Positions 3,799-62,434 of a DNA stretch of 64,000 nucleotides are shown piece by piece. A program made the translations under genes and the position numbers. The notes under the pieces are model-generated. The model saw nothing but the letters and a program-made list of their open reading frames with translations, made no database searches and was not told the DNA's origin. This stretch comes from Pseudoalteromonas carrageenovora IAM 12662. Its GTDB lineage: Bacteria > Pseudomonadota > Gammaproteobacteria > Enterobacterales > Alteromonadaceae. The number at the start of each line of letters is the position of its first letter. Position 1 is the stretch's first letter. The stretch covers positions 1,239,407 to 1,303,406 of the forward strand of contig NZ_LT965928.1 in NCBI RefSeq assembly GCF_900239935.1. Direction: 5' to 3'.

Positions 3799-4200
3799 TT
3801 AAAACTCACTCATATTTTCTTTTTTCTGAATAAGCTCAATTGAATAGCCATCAGGGTCTTTAACAAAGGCAATTTCTGTTGTGCCGCCTTTTACAGGGCC
3901 TGGTTCGCGACTCACATTACCGCCAGCAGCTTTTATCGCATCACATGCTTTGTAAATATCATCAAATTCAATAGCTATATGTCCGTAAGCATTGCCTAGG
4001 TCGTAGCTATCCTTATCCCAATTATATGTAAGCTCTAAAACGGTATTACTTTCTTCTTTTCCATAACCAATAAAAGCGAGAGTGTAACGATACTCCTCGT
4101 TTTGAGAGCGGCGTAGCTCCTGCATACCTAATACTTGTGTATAAAAAGCAATCGACTTATCTAGGTCGGCTACACGTAACATGGTGTGTAATAAGCGCAT
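3799..4200 (-). CDS. gloA: lactoylglutathione lyase (glyoxalase I)
   Basis: This 133-residue metalloenzyme isomerises the hemithioacetal of methylglyoxal and glutathione to S-lactoylglutathione in the cytoplasm. It has the two beta-alpha-beta-beta-beta modules of the family. All four metal ligands sit at the same positions as in the E. coli enzyme: His5, Glu56, His74 and Glu122. The C-terminal motif [12 protein letters not shown] is typical. The gene stands alone and is convergent with the zinc finger gene. The gene on its other side (4951, alginate operon) is divergent, across a 750-bp intergenic region. Confidence 0.96.
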
Positions 4201-4950
4201 TTTAATTCCCTCGTTATTTTTAGTTTAAAGCCCTTCACTAAACAGTAGCTACTAAATAAAAGTGCTTCAGAAATTGCTGTAGAGGTATTTAAACCATTCT
4301 CATCAAACAGTGACGGCTGTTATATCGCACCTACTGGCACGTTATTTAATATAATAAGCGTACATTTTATTCTTTTTAAAGGCTTTTGTAATCTAAGTCG
4401 TGTGCTTAAATTAAATATAAATCGAAGTTTTAAAAGAGCCATAAATACAATCTTTAAAATAAAAATTGACCAAGAATAGCAACCTTAAATGACCAAACTT
4501 AAAGTCAGTTAACTAGGTTTTATATGTTTTGGTAATGAAAGGGTAAGTATTGGTCAACCCATTGGTATAAAAAAAGTAACAATATTGCTAACAAAAAATG
4601 ACCAGTAAAATAAGCTCCGTATTAAGTGTAAGTAATTGTATTTTAATTAAAATTACTTTTCATGTTAAAGCGGTTGCAAAATATACATATTTACGTGGTT
4701 AACTTATTGGTTGACAAAAAACATGTATGGTAATACAGTTTTTGCATACCAATTGGTAAGTTGCTTGGTTTGAGTGAATACAATGTATTGGTAATTAATC
4801 AGAGTTACATTTTTGCACAGGTTAATTAATAAAATAACTCAAGCTAAAATCTACTCTACAAATTGAAACAAAAGACACAGCGTATTTATTTATAGAGTAA
4901 CTTTTACTCGTACTCATAAAAGTATGCGCCAACATATTTAGGAGTTATTC
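4201..4950 (+). promoter_or_regulatory. alginate operon control region with TTGGTNNACCAA-type sites
   Basis: This 750-bp region has no gene. It holds several sites close to the palindrome TTGGTNNACCAA. These are TTGGTCAACCCA at 4550-4561, GTGGTTAACTTA at 4695-4706, TTGGTTGACAAA at 4707-4718, the spaced palindrome TACCAATTGGTA at 4747-4758, and half sites near 4468, 4491 and 4788. The site at 4707-4718 overlaps a candidate -35 TTGACA (4711-4716), with TACAGT 17 bases downstream (4734-4739). There is also an inverted repeat AAGTAATT/AATTACTT at 4630-4637 and 4651-4658. The motif is of the GntR/FadR operator type and I infer repression of the alginate operon until substrate appears. Confidence 0.65.
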
Positions 4951-5971: not shown

Positions 5972-8230
5972 ATGCGTTTGATTAACACAATAAAGCTAAG
6001 CTTAGTTCTCATTGGTTGTATATCTACACAATTAGCAGCCAAAGATTATTTTGTAGATGATAAGCAAGCTTTCAGTGATATTTCTTCTAACTTAGTCGCA
6101 GGCGACAAAGTAATCCTTAAAAATGGTACATGGTCTGACTTCGAAATCCTACTTGAAGGCCAAGGTACACAAAACTCTCCTATTTTATTAACCGCAGAAA
6201 CAAACGGCAAAGTAATTTTATCTGGACAATCAAACCTAAGACTTGCAGGTAAATACTTAGAGGTTTCGGGTTTAGTATTCAAAAATGGCTATACACCAAG
6301 TTCTGCGGTTATTGAATTTCGTAAAAATAAAAGTAAATTAGCTTATAACTCACGCGTAACTCAAGTCGTAATCGATAATTACAATAACCCAGACAAACGC
6401 GAGTCAGATTACTGGGTTGCGTTATATGGCCAGCACAACCAGTTTGACCACAGTCATTTAGTCGGTAAGCGTAATAAAGGAGTTACTGTTGCAGTTCGTT
6501 TAAATACAGAACAAAGCCAGCAAAATTACCACAAAATTGATAATAACTTTTTTGGTTACCGCCCTACATTTGGTTCAAACGGTGGCGAAACTCTTCGCAT
6601 TGGTACCAGCCATTACTCATTAACTGATTCACACACATTAGTAGAGAACAATTATTTTGAGCGTACTAACGGTGAAGTAGAAATTATTTCGGTTAAGTCA
6701 GGCAAAAATATTATTCGTAATAACGTATTTTTTGAAGCGCGCGGTACGTTAACGCTTCGACATGGTAACGGTAACCTTATTGAAGAAAACATTTTCTTGG
6801 GTAATGGGGTAGATCACACCGGTGGTATTCGCGTTATTAATAAAGACCAAATTGTTAAAAATAACTACTTAGAAGGTTTAACGGGTTACCGTTTTGGTAG
6901 TGGTTTTACAGTAATGAACGGTGTACCAAATTCATCGATAAATCGTTATCACCAAGTAGAAAACGCAACCATTGAAAACAATACATTTGTAAACGTTCAG
7001 CACATACAACTTGCTGCCGGCAGTGATGCTGAGCGAAGTGCTGCACCTAAAAATAGCGTTATGAAAAATAACCTTATTATTAACCAAAATAAGCAGCAGC
7101 CATTTACTACATTTGATGATGTAAGCGGTATTGCTTTTAGTAATAACGTTGCAAACACTAAAGTACTCGATGAGTTAGCTTATGGTGTAAAAACACACAC
7201 TATCGCTTTAAGTAAAGCGGATAATGGTTTGCTTTATCCAGAATCTACTAACATTAAAGCGGGTGCAAAACGAGGTCTAAAAGTACTTAAAAAAGAAGAT
7301 ACAGGTGTTAGCTGGTATCCAAAAGTACCTGCTTTAGTAAAGTTTGACTCAGGCAAAACTCATACGGTAACTGCCAGCGCAAGTGCTTTATTAACGGCTA
7401 TCGAAAACGCCCAATCAGGTGATGTTTTAGAGCTTGATAATGGGCAATATGATGTGTCTAAGCTTGTTAAGATTGATAAAGCGCTCACCATTAAAGCTAA
7501 AAATTTAGGCCAAGCTAAGCTTACTTTTCAACGTTCTACATTATTTGAAATTCACGATGGCGGTAGCTTAAAGCTCGATGGGCTTAGTATTTCCGGTGAA
7601 AATGCACCAGATGCGATAAATAATAGTGTTGTGCGTACTAAAAAGTGGGGCATGATTGAAAACTACCGCTTTGAAATGCATAACTCTAAAATCACACATT
7701 TAGATATTAATCATTCATTTCACTTTTTTGTTACTGGCAAAGGCGCGATGGCTGATGAAGTTGTGCTAACAAGTAATACATTCGATAACGTAACGGGTAA
7801 TGTAATTAGCCTAAATACCGAAATTGAAGACTTAGGCATTTATAATGCTGAGTACGTTATTGTAAAAAATAACACATTCGACAATGTGGATGGCGCTTTG
7901 CTTAAGCTTTATCGTGGCGGCAGTGATGAAAGTACTTTTGGTCCTCACCTTCAAATGAGCAACAACACATTAAACAATGTAGGCTTAGGTAAGCGAAATA
8001 AAGAGCAAGCGAGTGTTTATGTACATGGTGTTCAGGTTACGAATATCAAAAGCAATAAGTTTATTAAATCGGCTCCATTAGTAGTAGAGCACACCGTAGG
8101 TGAGCCTAAAACAGAAATTTCAAATAATACATTTAATGCAACTCAATCTCCAAGTGTGAAAGAGTTAAGAGTGGCGGGTCCGCATACTGCTGTAATTAAA
8201 AATAATAACGTTTTAAATAAGGCGGGGTAA
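5972..8230 (+). CDS. PL6 family alginate lyase, two beta-helix domains, secreted
   Basis: This 752-residue chondroitinase-B-like lyase has a Sec signal peptide of about 23 residues and two right-handed beta-helix domains (about 25-370 and 375-750), a layout known from two-domain PL6 enzymes. The catalytic lysine and arginine of the family are visible as Lys242 (EIISVKSGKN) and Arg263 (TLRHGNGN), 21 residues apart. The acidic calcium-site residues Glu206 (NGGET), Glu235 and Glu237 (NGEVEI) are also present. It should cleave alginate by beta-elimination in the periplasm. It is followed after only two bases by the PL17 gene, so the two enzymes are made together. Whether it is endo- or exolytic, and its M/G preference, cannot be read from sequence. 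Confidence 0.93.
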   Translation: MRLINTIKLSLVLIGCISTQLAAKDYFVDDKQAFSDISSNLVAGDKVILKNGTWSDFEILLEGQGTQNSPILLTAETNGKVILSGQSNLRLAGKYLEVSGLVFKNGYTPSSAVIEFRKNKSKLAYNSRVTQVVIDNYNNPDKRESDYWVALYGQHNQFDHSHLVGKRNKGVTVAVRLNTEQSQQNYHKIDNNFFGYRPTFGSNGGETLRIGTSHYSLTDSHTLVENNYFERTNGEVEIISVKSGKNIIRNNVFFEARGTLTLRHGNGNLIEENIFLGNGVDHTGGIRVINKDQIVKNNYLEGLTGYRFGSGFTVMNGVPNSSINRYHQVENATIENNTFVNVQHIQLAAGSDAERSAAPKNSVMKNNLIINQNKQQPFTTFDDVSGIAFSNNVANTKVLDELAYGVKTHTIALSKADNGLLYPESTNIKAGAKRGLKVLKKEDTGVSWYPKVPALVKFDSGKTHTVTASASALLTAIENAQSGDVLELDNGQYDVSKLVKIDKALTIKAKNLGQAKLTFQRSTLFEIHDGGSLKLDGLSISGENAPDAINNSVVRTKKWGMIENYRFEMHNSKITHLDINHSFHFFVTGKGAMADEVVLTSNTFDNVTGNVISLNTEIEDLGIYNAEYVIVKNNTFDNVDGALLKLYRGGSDESTFGPHLQMSNNTLNNVGLGKRNKEQASVYVHGVQVTNIKSNKFIKSAPLVVEHTVGEPKTEISNNTFNATQSPSVKELRVAGPHTAVIKNNNVLNKAG

Positions 8231-58399: not shown

Positions 58400-58618
58400 A
58401 TGTTAGAGCGCGATTTAAAAAAGTTTAAATGTCCGCAGCAATTTGTGCAGTTTAAACTTGCCCTAAAAAGTGCGCAGTCATCAAAACAGTGCATTATTTT
58501 TAGTATAAATAAAGGCGAAAGTGCGAACGACATAGAACGTTTTTTGCAAAAAAATGCTTACCGTTACAATTTTGATAAACAACGTGGGTTGTTATTAGTG
58601 GAGCCATTACATGTTTGA
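58400..58618 (+). CDS. TusA/SirA-family small protein
   Basis: This 72-residue protein has the TusA-type fold pattern: a CP motif (Cys11 in KKFKCPQQFVQFKLALKSA), a beta strand and a helix (SANDIERFLQKNAYRYNFD), and a final strand. TusA carries persulfide sulfur to tRNA thiolation and related pathways. Here the motif is CPQQ in place of the classical CPxP. Its stop codon overlaps the perM start, so the two proteins are made together. A large sulfur-handling fusion enzyme follows perM, which fits a sulfur context. Confidence 0.75.
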   Translation: MLERDLKKFKCPQQFVQFKLALKSAQSSKQCIIFSINKGESANDIERFLQKNAYRYNFDKQRGLLLVEPLHV

Positions 58619-59687
58619 ATACGTAAAAGCATGGTACGAAAGGAAGTTCTCGGATCCTCATTCGGTTACCTTATTATTTTTATTATTAGCCTCAGTTGCT
58701 TTACTTTACTTTTTTGGTTCGTTAATTGTGCCGGTACTAGTGGCATTGGTAATTGCTTATTTACTTGATTGGCCTGTAGTGCATTTAGAGCGCTTTGGTG
58801 TAAAGCGCTTTGGCGCTACAGTTATAGTAATGCTAATTTTTATAAGCATTATGCTGACTCTTATTTTAGTTATTGGGCCAGTGCTTTGGAAACAAACCAG
58901 TAACTTAGTGCAAGAAACCCCGCATATGCTAGAGCAAGGTAAGTCGTACTTAATTGCATTACCTGAGCGATACCCAAGTTTAATTAATATTGAACAAGTA
59001 CAGGCTATTGTGGCAACCGTTGAAGACAAAATAATTGAGTTTGGCCAAGTGGTTTTATCGTTTTCGCTTACGTCGTTAAAAGATGTTGTGGCTTGGCTTA
59101 TCTATTTGGTACTTGTGCCGTTACTGGTGTTTTTTATGCTTAAAGATAAGTTAGAGCTAACAGGTAGCGCCGCTAAACTTATACCACAGCAACGGCGTTT
59201 AATTTTGCAGGTTTGGAATGAAATGAATCAGCAAATAATGAACTACATTCGCGGTAAAGTGTTTGAAATTTTAATTGTTGGTGGTGTGTCGTTTATAGCG
59301 TTTACTGTTTTAGATTTACGTTATGCGGCACTTTTAGGTGTGCTAGTTGGCTTTTCGGTATTAATTCCATTTATTGGTGCCGCGCTTGTAACGATCCCGG
59401 TTGCCGCTGTGGCATTGTTTCAATTTGGCCTTGAAACGCAGTTTTGGACCATTTTAATAATTTACGGGATCATCCAAGCACTCGATGGCAATGTATTAGT
59501 GCCGCTGTTGTTTTCGGAAGCGGTTGACTTAAACCCGGTATTTATAATTGTTGCAGTGTTATTTTTTGGTGGCTTGTGGGGTTTTTGGGGCGTATTTTTT
59601 GCCATTCCATTAGCATCGCTTGTAAAAGCGTTAATAAATGCGTGGTCATCAACACATGAAGAAATAACCAAAGAGCTGGCGGAGTAA
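58611..59687 (+). CDS. perM: PerM/AI-2E family transporter
   Basis: This 358-residue membrane protein of the AI-2E exporter superfamily has about eight transmembrane helices. The motifs VPVLVALVIAYLLDWPVVHLERFG near the N terminus and the C-terminal GVLVGFSVLIPFIGAALVTIP ... PLLFSEAVDLNPVFIIVAVLFFGGLWGFWGVFFAIPLA are diagnostic. PerM is the usual name for the copy next to bepA and a TusA-like gene. The transported compound is not known with certainty. The start overlaps the upstream stop codon by eight bases. Confidence 0.85.
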   Translation: MFEYVKAWYERKFSDPHSVTLLFLLLASVALLYFFGSLIVPVLVALVIAYLLDWPVVHLERFGVKRFGATVIVMLIFISIMLTLILVIGPVLWKQTSNLVQETPHMLEQGKSYLIALPERYPSLINIEQVQAIVATVEDKIIEFGQVVLSFSLTSLKDVVAWLIYLVLVPLLVFFMLKDKLELTGSAAKLIPQQRRLILQVWNEMNQQIMNYIRGKVFEILIVGGVSFIAFTVLDLRYAALLGVLVGFSVLIPFIGAALVTIPVAAVALFQFGLETQFWTILIIYGIIQALDGNVLVPLLFSEAVDLNPVFIIVAVLFFGGLWGFWGVFFAIPLASLVKALINAWSSTHEEITKELAE

Positions 59688-59723: not shown

Positions 59724-59819
59724 AAACGCACCTAAGTTGCTAAAGAGTTATTACTCATTACCCATAAATTTATGTACTATTGGTAATAAGATATATTTTT
59801 TAGTAATAAAGGTGCGTTT
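59724..59819 (+). promoter_or_regulatory. leader with an inverted repeat enclosing the ribosome-binding site of the fusion gene
   Basis: The arm AAACGCACCT (59724-59733) is perfectly complementary to AGGTGCGTTT (59810-59819), which contains the ribosome-binding site (AAAGGTG at 59808-59814). The 76 bases between include a second inverted pair, TTATTAC and GTAATAA. In RNA this could fold so that the ribosome-binding site is hidden. As DNA it could equally be a long operator. Both readings are inferences. Confidence 0.5.
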
Positions 59820-59823
59820 TTTA

Positions 59824-62079
59824 ATGTCTGAGTTTTTATTGCCCGATGAACCACTAAAACAAGTTTACCTTGATGCAAATGCAACGACCCCAGTGTTGCC
59901 ATGCATTGCTGATGTGGTGTCCCATACTATGCAAATATGTTTTGGTAATCCTTCTAGCCCGCATATTAGTGGTATTCAAGCTAAACACTTATTAGAGCAA
60001 ACACGCGATAAAGCTCGCGCCGTCATTGGTGCTAAAAATGGCGATATTTTGTTTACCTCAGGTGCTACAGAAGGTATTCAAACAGCGGTGGTATCTACGC
60101 TTATCAATGCTAAAAAACACACTATTAAAAACCCAGTATTGCTATATGGTGCTACAGAGCACAAAGCCGTACCAAATACATTAAAACACTGGAATAACGT
60201 ACTTGAAATAAACGCCCAAGTGCTTGCTATTCCGGTAGATAGTAACGGTATTTTAGATTTAGATTTTATTGCAAAGCATATCAATAACGCATTGATGATC
60301 TGCACAATGGCGGTTAATAACGAAACTGGCGTGTATCAAAATTTAGCAGCAATTGAGCAAACAATTCGCAGCCGTAACAACAATGTATCGTGGATGGTTG
60401 ATTGCGTTCAAGCTCTTGGTAAGCAAGCGCTTGTGCTTAGCGATACAACGATAGATTACGCGCCGTTTTCTGGGCATAAACTTTATGCACCTAAAGGAAT
60501 TGGCCTACTTTACATTAAAAGTGGCAGTGCTTACACGCCATTTATAGCCGGTGGCGGGCAAGAAAGCGGTATGCGATCAGGCACCGAAAACCTGCCAGGT
60601 ATTGCTGGGTTAAATAAGCTTTTTAGCTTATTACTCGATAAAACCGACGATACTTTTAAATCATTAGATACATTAAATAGCTATCGCAGTGAGTTACACG
60701 AAGCATTAAAAAATACATTTGGCGATATAACGTTTAATCATAGTTTTGAGCATTCAGTGCCAACAACATTAAACTTTGCTGTAAACGATTTAACGTCAAA
60801 AGAAGTGATTGATTTGTTTGACGCGGCAGGTATTCGTGTAAGTGGGGGATCTGCGTGTAGTACAGGTGCTGCGCAAAGCTTTGTACTTGATGCAATGGGC
60901 GCAAGTAAATGGCAAAGCGAAAATGCAATTAGGCTCTCGTTTGGCCCAGCAGCCACGCAGCAAGATATAACTTATGCTTGTGAGCGTATTCGTGCTTTAA
61001 AACAAATACTGCAAGCAAACTGTTTAATCGTGTCTGACAGTACTACACCACAACAAGAAGTGTGCGCACTGGGATTAACTCAATTTAGGCATCAGGGCGC
61101 GTGTAGTTGGTTGTATGTGAGCGACGATAAGCACGCAGTTATTATCGACCCAATTATTGAGCTAATTCCTCGATTTGAAAAAATAGCGAATACTCAAAAC
61201 TTAAAGGTGGCTGCGGTACTTAATACTCATAAGCATCAAGAGCGAGAGTCTGCAACACAGCTACTAACGAGTGTATTAGCTCATAGAGTTGTAAAGGGTG
61301 AAGTTGATGCGCTTGGTTGGCCTATAAACCTAGCAACAATAACACTAACAAATGACGTGCTTGAAAAAGTAGCAACACCAGGGCACAGCAAAGACAGCGT
61401 CAGTTATTTACTAAAAAATAGCGCGGGTGAAACGCGGTACTGTTTTTGTGGCGATTTAATTTTACCTGCGGGGCTTGGCAACACATCGCTTAAAGGGGGC
61501 GATGCTAAAGCTATGGCGCAGTCTATTTTAACATTAAGCAAGCAGCTAACTAATAAGAGTATTATTTGTTCAGGGCACGACTACCAACAGTGTTTTGCTA
61601 TGAACTGGGCTGTACAGCAAAAGCAAACACCTTTATTAAGTGCTTTAAAAAATAACGATATTTCAATTGATGAGTTTGCATTGCAAAAGCAGCAATATGA
61701 TGCACTAAAACAAGTTAATAACACCCAGTTATGTGGTTATGTAAACGCGCTGCCAGAAATTGATACGCAACAACTGAGTTTTAAAGATGCAAAAGCAATG
61801 CTTAGCACGGATAGCACCTATTTAATTGATACACGAGAACCATACGAACACGGTGCTACCAACGTAGCTCACTTGTTTAACACTCCCAATGCAAACACGT
61901 TAAATATACCTCTTAGCAGAATGGCCAATGCGGTATTTGAAGGCCAGCTCAATAAAAACAATACATACATTTTATTGTGCCGAAGCGGAAACCGCTCAAA
62001 AATAGCGGCTAACAACTTAATGCAACTAGGGTATAAAACCGTTTATAACTTAAATGGTGGCTTGGCACTGAGCAATTAA
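59824..62079 (+). CDS. cysteine desulfurase / MBL persulfide dioxygenase-like / rhodanese fusion
   Basis: This 751-residue protein joins three sulfur-handling domains. Residues about 12-395 form an aminotransferase class V cysteine desulfurase with PLP Lys219 (FSGHKLYAPKG) and catalytic Cys345 (GGSACSTGA). Residues about 410-610 form a metallo-beta-lactamase domain with His469/His471 (NTHKHQER), His521 (TPGHSKDS), Asp544 (CGDLILPAG) and His585 (SGHDY). The usual HxHxDH is HxHxER here, keeping only the three ligands of mono-iron persulfide dioxygenases (ETHE1: His, His, Asp). Residues about 650-751 form a rhodanese with Cys719 (LLCRSGNRS). I chose ATG 59824 behind AAAGGTG over an in-frame ATG at 59737 lacking one. 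I infer sulfur mobilised from cysteine and processed in one polypeptide. Confidence 0.9.
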   Translation: MSEFLLPDEPLKQVYLDANATTPVLPCIADVVSHTMQICFGNPSSPHISGIQAKHLLEQTRDKARAVIGAKNGDILFTSGATEGIQTAVVSTLINAKKHTIKNPVLLYGATEHKAVPNTLKHWNNVLEINAQVLAIPVDSNGILDLDFIAKHINNALMICTMAVNNETGVYQNLAAIEQTIRSRNNNVSWMVDCVQALGKQALVLSDTTIDYAPFSGHKLYAPKGIGLLYIKSGSAYTPFIAGGGQESGMRSGTENLPGIAGLNKLFSLLLDKTDDTFKSLDTLNSYRSELHEALKNTFGDITFNHSFEHSVPTTLNFAVNDLTSKEVIDLFDAAGIRVSGGSACSTGAAQSFVLDAMGASKWQSENAIRLSFGPAATQQDITYACERIRALKQILQANCLIVSDSTTPQQEVCALGLTQFRHQGACSWLYVSDDKHAVIIDPIIELIPRFEKIANTQNLKVAAVLNTHKHQERESATQLLTSVLAHRVVKGEVDALGWPINLATITLTNDVLEKVATPGHSKDSVSYLLKNSAGETRYCFCGDLILPAGLGNTSLKGGDAKAMAQSILTLSKQLTNKSIICSGHDYQQCFAMNWAVQQKQTPLLSALKNNDISIDEFALQKQQYDALKQVNNTQLCGYVNALPEIDTQQLSFKDAKAMLSTDSTYLIDTREPYEHGATNVAHLFNTPNANTLNIPLSRMANAVFEGQLNKNNTYILLCRSGNRSKIAANNLMQLGYKTVYNLNGGLALSN

Positions 62080-62434
62080 CAGCAGCGGTTAATAATAAGT
62101 CGGCTTTAGGGCCGACTTTTTTATTTATGCATACTTATTAGATAATTATACAAACACCCGTTAAAAGTCATTAATATTTCATTTTTTGGGTTTAAGCTAT
62201 ATCAGTGCCTTTAAAATTAAGGGATAATTAATTTATAAAATTTTTATGATACCGGTGTCAAAAGCTAAAAATTGCGTTATCATCTGCACCTTAAATTATA
62301 AAAACAGCACTTTTTTTGCATTTTTAGTTATACTATTGACGTTTAATTTTAGTATGAAAAAGCAGTAATAAGAGTTTTGCTTTTATAAAAAGCATTTTAA
62401 AATCAATTGATTGAAAGAATTAGAGGGTACTTAC
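62080..62434. other. terminator and upstream region of pgi
   Basis: The fusion gene ends in a terminator: stem AAGTCGGC (62097-62104) / GCCGACTT (62111-62118) with a T tract to 62122. The rest of the 355-bp region is AT-rich and should hold the pgi promoter. TATACT at 62329-62334 is a reasonable -10, but I found no good -35 at the right distance. Confidence 0.7.

Follow-up and report, generated by a model that had tools for sequence, protein, structure and literature searches.

The 64,000-nucleotide stretch of Pseudoalteromonas carrageenovora DNA analysed here (the window) contains a gene for which a sequence-only reading had proposed a fusion of a cysteine desulfurase, an MBL domain resembling persulfide dioxygenases, and a rhodanese. 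The question raised by this locus is whether such a chain oxidises the sulfur that it mobilises, or whether its constant task is another one.

Overall architecture

The open reading frame of 751 residues opens with an ATG at 59824 on the forward strand and ends, stop codon included, at 62079; started from an upstream TTG, the same frame is listed as 59737-62079. Pfam matches to Aminotran_5 (residues 14-383, E = 1.4e-55), Lactamase_B (residues 499-585, E = 4.9e-07) and Rhodanese (residues 654-747, E = 1.2e-12) follow each other along the chain, which bears out the proposed single chain of three domains: a group-I cysteine desulfurase, a domain of persulfide-dioxygenase fold and a rhodanese. Lys219, Cys345 and Cys719, named earlier as the residues of the two sulfur-handling sites, are each present. 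A chance joining or an assembly error in the source genome (4.58 Mb in 3 contigs) is ruled out, because 80 further loci from other records carry the same near-full-length chain. The features of the region are summarized in Table 1.

Table 1. Features of the fusion gene and its surroundings (positions in the window)
Feature	Position	Strand	Basis or remark
TusA-like gene, 72 aa, CPQQ motif; neighbour	58400..58618	+	TusA 23.8 bits vs Pfam cut-off 28.6
AI-2E/PerM-type membrane protein gene, overlaps TusA-like gene	58611..59687	+	ORF, Pfam
Desulfurase / MBL (persulfide-dioxygenase fold) / rhodanese protein, 751 residues	59824..62079, stop included	+	ORF, Pfam, 80 homologous loci
Cysteine desulfurase domain, NifS/IscS-like group I, residues about 12-395	59857..61008	+	
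Lys219, PLP lysine	60478..60480	+	Aligned with IscS lysine; 128/128 distinct sequences
Cys345, desulfurase catalytic cysteine	60856..60858	+	Alignment; 128/128 distinct sequences
MBL domain, persulfide-dioxygenase fold, residues about 416-612	61069..61659	+	Pfam, alignment, fold matches
THKHQER, residues 468-474: HxHxDH changed to HxHxER; His469 is first iron ligand position	61225..61245	+	Alignment
His521, second iron ligand position	61384..61386	+	Alignment to ETHE1 family
Asp544, third iron ligand position	61453..61455	+	Alignment to ETHE1 family
Asn553-Thr-Ser555 where dioxygenases have R-T-D	61480..61488	+	Alignment
His585-Asp-Tyr587, second-sphere and GSH-contact positions, retained	61576..61584	+	Alignment
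Rhodanese domain, residues 654-747	61783..62064	+	
CRSGNRS rhodanese loop (719-725), Cys719	61978..61998	+	Cys719, Arg720, Arg724 each 128/128
Terminator-like hairpin, 9 pairs and T tail, 18 bases past stop	62097..62118	+	Pattern match

Desulfurase and rhodanese domains

The N-terminal domain resembles the group-I desulfurases NifS and IscS (1ECX, 3LVJ) in fold, and alignment to both structures reveals that the PLP lysine, the substrate residues and the catalytic loop cysteine are all present. His113, Asp193, Gln196, Lys219, Cys345 and Arg370 each occur in all 128 distinct aligned sequences. In spite of these similarities, the window protein lies below the cut-offs of the curated families: its best NCBIfam desulfurase score is 270 bits to NifS against a cut-off of 530.75, and no named desulfurase family is reached at its cut-off among 25 of the 28 families listed. 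The relative L085 likewise stays below the curated cut-offs. Judged by these scores, the desulfurase part is an unnamed subfamily, below the cut-off of every curated family among those 25 of 28. The same genome encodes IscS and a SufS-family enzyme separately, both above their family cut-offs. The loop around Cys345 (residues 344-348) has a pLDDT under 50 in the structure model, and a fold search with the whole-chain model gave matches that were all taken up by the desulfurase.

The rhodanese at the other end of the chain contains the CRxGxR active loop of the rhodanese sulfurtransferases. Rhodaneses of persulfide reductases (3NTD, 3ICT and 8A56) are listed among the closest known systems; in those enzymes the rhodanese domain sits behind a flavoprotein.

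Metal site of the middle domain

The C-terminal half was folded alone for a fold search of its own, in which persulfide dioxygenase-rhodanese fusions were the best matches. Like the ETHE1-type dioxygenases (4CHL, 4YSB, 8ZBD, 2GCU and the A. caldus PDO, AcPDO), the middle domain has the persulfide dioxygenase fold, the 2-His-1-Asp iron ligands (His469, His521 and Asp544, by alignment) and the His and Tyr of the HDY motif. Unlike these enzymes, it has Glu473 and Arg474 in place of the Asp-His of HxHxDH, and Asn553 and Ser555 in place of the Arg and Asp of GRTDF. The conversion of HxHxDH to HxHxER with retention of the three mono-iron ligands had been recognised correctly before; the replacement of the GRTDF residues is an addition to it.

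The altered positions were mapped to AcPDO via alignment to ETHE1 and BpPRF, with the AcPDO numbering given in passages of PMC6060420; the ligand spacing is that of AcPDO from D130 onward and inside HxHxDH. AcPDO residues D61, H62, R139, D141, H171 and Y173 correspond to Glu473, Arg474, Asn553, Ser555, His585 and Tyr587, and four of the six are thus replaced in the window protein. According to the same passages, activity was undetectable in the AcPDO variants D61A, H62A and H171A and was 0.4% in R139A and 1.5% in D141A, and Type III dioxygenases are without the third His (PMC6060420). Glu473 is a conservative change relative to D61. By this yardstick, which consists of alanine variants of one enzyme, the middle domain of the window protein is unlikely to be an ordinary GSSH dioxygenase.

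The window protein shares with BpPRF (5VE3-5VE5), 3TP9, 3R2U and CstB an MBL domain of dioxygenase fold ahead of a rhodanese, but differs from these fusions by the desulfurase in front and by the replaced catalytic residues. BpPRF retains both HxHxDH and GRTDF, whereas the window protein does not, and superposition of BpPRF on the window model over both domains gives 15.5-15.6 Å, pointing to a different arrangement in the predicted structure. When the source genome was searched for a second ETHE1-type protein with the middle domain of L085 (E ≤ 1e-6), one further match was obtained, a 229-aa ORF with HxHxDH that is 29% identical to the query. On inspection of its sequence this ORF was not accepted as another ETHE1-type dioxygenase and is probably YcbL/glyoxalase-II-like.

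Distribution of the fusion

A scan of contigs yielded 284 relatives; the 80 best were retained, each spanning the chain from residue 14 or earlier to residue 746 or later. These best 80 of 284 come from Pseudoalteromonas, Colwellia, Thalassotalea, Shewanella, Rheinheimera, Paraglaciecola and kin, and Pseudoalteromonas supplies the closest relatives of the gene. With a whole-chain profile at a strict threshold, all 99 genomes of the genus that were searched gave one match each; 83 of these matches cover the whole profile, one lacks the N-terminal part, and 15 extend only over the desulfurase and into the beginning of the middle domain. At the strict threshold, matches were also found in 43 of 394 genomes of the order (two of them, in G748 and G757, partial) and in one of 369 genomes from a sample of the class, the window's own; these fractions and those below are unsuited to close comparison, as thresholds differ between the samples, and the absences are soft, two first-look candidates per genome having been scored in the order, class and phylum samples and three for the two-domain query.

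A sample of the phylum at a laxer threshold gave 10 matching genomes of 398, nine from the window's order, already among the order matches, and one new genome, G1006, from a distant family of the same class. In this family 27 of 116 genomes match. A two-domain query matched 177 of 392 genomes there, in a sample that overlaps the genomes of the former one, and at least 16 of the 177 give alignments that span the full length of the query, within open frames of 513-565 codons. G1491 and G1501, both from the distant family, each contain two matches to this query rather than a single one. The search over genomes for the same architecture thus found it not to be unique to the window.

Alteration and loss of the middle domain

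The alignment comprises 144 proteins, 128 of them distinct, namely the window protein, its best 80 relatives and loci from later genome searches; the duplicate copy of the window protein (L089) was dropped. Many short forms were fetched on purpose, and fractions among the 128 are therefore not population frequencies. While Lys219, Cys345 and Cys719 are kept in all 128, the triad His469/His521/Asp544 is whole in 93 (48 with and 45 without HxHxDH) and incomplete in 35; a middle region is still present in 31 of these, and four have almost nothing between the outer domains. HxHxER is a clade variant, as the Asp-His of HxHxDH is kept in 37 of the 81 aligned members formed by the window protein and its best 80 relatives. 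At positions 474 and 553 the 93 triad members have His/Arg (48), Arg/Asn (34), Arg/Ala (1) or Lys/Ser (1); both positions are exchanged in 36 of the 45 members without Asp-His, and only position 474 is changed in the other nine, one of which, L081 from Rheinheimera, has Arg at both. Among the 48 HxHxDH members, position 555 is Asp in 12 and Asn in 36, and this Asn in place of the second Asp may make the activity of most HxHxDH members doubtful as well.

A profile built from the 48 intact middle domains recognises, at E < 1e-3, all 45 altered members, 28 of the 31 ligandless members (L100, L133 and L134 are missed) and none of the four deleted members; none of 400 shuffled controls was recognised at E < 0.01. 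On a tree of the desulfurase columns, calculated by a quick method with SH-aLRT only and unsafe where the long branches of L099 and L100 meet, at least ten changes are required among the four states of the middle domain, at least five for the presence of the triad, and six for HxHxDH. Alignment and tree indicate repeated alteration and loss of the middle domain, with both sulfur cysteines retained throughout. Loss rather than gain would be the direction, because recognisable remnants of the domain persist.

Three of the four ligandless groups have a middle domain that is clearly freer to change. Values of dN/dS for desulfurase, middle domain and rhodanese are 0.053, 0.203 and 0.033 in the L133 group (one pair), 0.064, 0.214 and 0.084 in L137-143 (one pair), and 0.334, 0.695 and 0.438 in the distant family (91 pairs, with saturation or composition bias suspected). 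The exception is the P. rubra group, with 0.027, 0.049 and 0.047 (one pair). Members of this group (L042, L043 and L044) have a middle region of full length with a broken triad, of which one ligand is left in L042 and none in L043 and L044, and their desulfurase and rhodanese residues are intact.

Conservation of the altered site in the window clade

Within the window clade the altered site is maintained. In the 36 members with the triad, His469, His471, His521, Asp544, His585, Asp586 and Tyr587 are each invariant, position 473 is always Glu or Asp, position 474 is Arg in 35 and Lys in one, and position 553 is Asn in 34, Ala in one and Ser in one; position 555 is variable (Ala, Ser, Leu and others). 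For 43 close pairs of the clade, dN/dS is 0.041 in the desulfurase, 0.075 in the middle domain and 0.078 in the rhodanese, and the HxHxDH members (14 pairs) have 0.111, 0.162 and 0.221. Pairwise identities, taken within the window clade and among the intact members, show that middle domain and rhodanese diverge alike at most levels of divergence. The low dN/dS and the invariant site rule out a pseudogene-like decay of the window middle domain. Because it is conserved within its clade, the altered site looks re-specialised rather than dying, and its retention speaks for some function of the middle domain in the window clade.

Genomic neighbourhood

The region has five listed hairpins where chance would give 4.7, and the terminator-like hairpin of Table 1 is therefore supported only by its strength and place; the gap between perM and the fusion gene contains none of the five. 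Because this hairpin directly follows the fusion and none is listed between perM and the fusion, tusA, perM and the fusion gene may form one transcript in the window clade. The order tusA-perM-fusion occurs in 35 distinct loci of the 105 stretches in which the fusion gene was located (the window counted once), all from the window clade. Eleven genomes were tested for the tusA-perM pair (the source genome, seven other Pseudoalteromonas, and one each from Colwellia, Shewanella and Rheinheimera); it is present in ten, with the fusion adjoining in two, and the Rheinheimera genome is without a TusA match. The TusA-like neighbour, suggested earlier to strengthen the sulfur theme, gives weak support for a sulfur role; its TusA score is below the cut-off, and the tusA-perM pair also occurs without the fusion. 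The use of an operon partner as a clue to function is ruled out by the existence of the tusA-perM pair without the fusion and by neighbours that differ between clades.

The neighbour families of the other clades were named from L046, L099, L066 and L056, and those of the remaining loci were assigned by clustering. An IscX-type gene lies directly after the fusion in six loci (L046, positions 7519-7719, by family search; L045, L048, L086, L091 and L108 by clustering) and two genes further on in a seventh, L104 (clustering); the fusion proteins of L086 and L091 are identical. An NqrM-type gene directly precedes the fusion in L099 (Pfam) and L100 (clustering), and in L099 it could link the sulfur of the fusion to NQR maturation. 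In these two loci (L099:1-6334 and L100:3230-8814, in genomes of 2.5 and 2.7 Mb) the fusion is located downstream of genes that we take to be those of Na+-NQR. A FadR-type regulator and DsbB are found near the fusion in Rheinheimera and kin. In five Shewanella loci (L056, positions 4146-4712; L061, L071, L073 and L076) the fusion is preceded by a DSP-PTPase-like protein, a domain of the kind found in front of Blh dioxygenases.

Comparison with published fusions

A desulfurase followed by a rhodanese in one chain of 54 kDa has been described for Pseudorhodoferax sp. Leaf274 (CD-Rhd, WP_056898193.1; PMC8931425, PMC12319549), with Cys334 and Cys466 as catalytic residues (PMC12319549). In the passages of PMC8931425 used here, CD-Rhd is a PLP dimer with a kcat/KM of about 2e4 per M per s for L-cysteine, and its rate of cysteine desulfuration is the highest that its authors tabulate. 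Removal of the rhodanese Cys lowers kcat (about 7-fold with DTT, 9-fold with GSH, 11-fold with beta-mercaptoethanol) and makes transfer to a protein thiol much slower in vitro (PMC8931425); as kcat/KM with DTT is not lowered without this Cys (3.3e4 vs 2.2e4), not every acceptor requires the rhodanese. CD-Rhd and the window protein have in common a desulfurase and a rhodanese with both cysteines in one chain. Three of the four MBL-less relatives (511-518 aa, 52.6-53.7 kDa, Cys338-342 and Cys479-485) have the same domain order and nearly the same size as CD-Rhd. In the same passages of PMC8931425 a middle domain goes unmentioned and the word lactamase is absent. By analogy, the window family would be said to work like CD-Rhd, not to be a member of its family. 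A Pseudorhodoferax-like relative was sought in 215 genomes of the order of G1153, where only the starting genomes G1153 and G1006 matched.

Fusions of dioxygenase and rhodanese have been published and are the only ones in the passages of PMC9774590; desulfurase-rhodanese and desulfurase-TusA fusions are also on record (PMC11763069), as is a desulfurase fused to CysH in archaea, a different architecture (PMC11237513). The three-domain form is absent from the passages of these three sources and of PMC10135228, and neither this form nor its erosion did turn up in the literature searched, which covers few of the subscription journals. The view that a fusion with a desulfurase in front is undescribed thus holds for the three-domain form, which together with its erosion is apparently new, but not for the two-domain desulfurase-rhodanese, which is known.

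Proposed mechanism and alternatives

Since the residues of the outer domains are always kept, while the middle domain is altered, worn down or lost in relatives, the comparison suggests that moving sulfur, and not burning it, is the constant job of the enzyme. The best reading, which is held to be probable, is that of a desulfurase with a built-in sulfur acceptor that hands its persulfide to its own rhodanese, the middle domain being an optional add-on and in this protein probably no ordinary GSSH dioxygenase. To judge from its residues, the PLP enzyme would transfer the L-cysteine sulfur to Cys345, forming a persulfide, from which the sulfane sulfur would pass to the rhodanese Cys719, either in the same chain or in the partner chain of a dimer, as the in vitro behaviour of the two-domain analogue suggests. 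The rhodanese would then hand the sulfur to a thiol acceptor, with GSH, a protein thiol or a carrier as candidates. The middle domain probably descends from an iron persulfide dioxygenase, and in relatives with a whole or near-whole site it may convert some of the persulfide to sulfite by oxidation. The more likely role of the domain in the window clade is to bind a metal or thiol ligand for some other function, such as holding an acceptor, regulation or the oxidation of a different persulfide.

Two versions of the best reading differ from it only in the role of the middle domain. In the first, HxHQ[E/D]R and Asn553 would form a re-specialised site that oxidises or binds a persulfide delivered by Cys719 or a non-GSH thiol, with Arg474 standing in for the Arg lost at position 553, and the window-clade domain may be a dioxygenase acting on another substrate. 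This version, proposed tentatively, agrees with the low dN/dS and with the joint exchange of positions 474 and 553, although that exchange may be a single event inherited by the clade, and the nine members changed at position 474 only, including L081 with its two Arg residues, do not follow it. The second version, in which the window MBL serves only as linker or dimer scaffold while desulfurase and rhodanese act, appears rather unlikely: ligandless and domain-less relatives do persist with both sulfur cysteines, but a spacer would hardly keep seven ligand and second-sphere positions invariant in all 36 window-clade members.

A dedicated biosynthetic desulfurase feeding Fe-S assembly or thiolation beside IscS would be compatible with the best reading. 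The IscX-type and NqrM-type neighbours are in line with such a role, as are the IscS and SufS-family enzymes encoded separately, but these neighbours are not kept between clades and no IscX- or NqrM-type gene occurs within four genes on each side in the other loci, so that this role is considered improbable. There is equally little reason to favour the single-chain route from cysteine sulfur over persulfide to sulfite or thiosulfate that the sequence-only reading had envisaged, with the window MBL as a working mono-iron GSSH dioxygenase. Its structural premises stand, namely the fold and domains, the three iron ligands, His585 and Tyr587, a middle domain under purifying selection, and 48 of 128 distinct sequences with both HxHxDH and the Arg; against it, Glu473, Arg474, Asn553 and Ser555 occupy the catalytic positions at which the AcPDO alanine variants retained next to no activity, and only 12 of the 48 HxHxDH members keep Asp at position 555.

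These elements can be combined into a speculative history, put forward with reserve. Desulfurase, dioxygenase and rhodanese would once have been joined in an enzyme carrying cysteine sulfur to sulfite or to acceptors; in Pseudoalteromonas the site would have been remade (HxHQ[E/D]R, Asn replacing Arg) so that it acts on the persulfide passed on by the rhodanese of the same enzyme, giving a metal site of new specificity, and sister lineages would have worn down and cut out the domain, leaving a natural gradation between a three-step and a two-step enzyme.

Implications

The enzyme is encoded in all 99 genomes of the genus that were searched, yet lies outside the curated desulfurase families among 25 of the 28 listed. 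It also carries a warning that three retained ligands are insufficient for calling dioxygenase activity. If the proposed reading is true, the family shows how a desulfurase gains a private sulfur acceptor, and its members with whole, altered, ligandless and deleted oxygenase domains would form a graded natural series in which the worth of coupling the making of persulfide to its burning may be tested.
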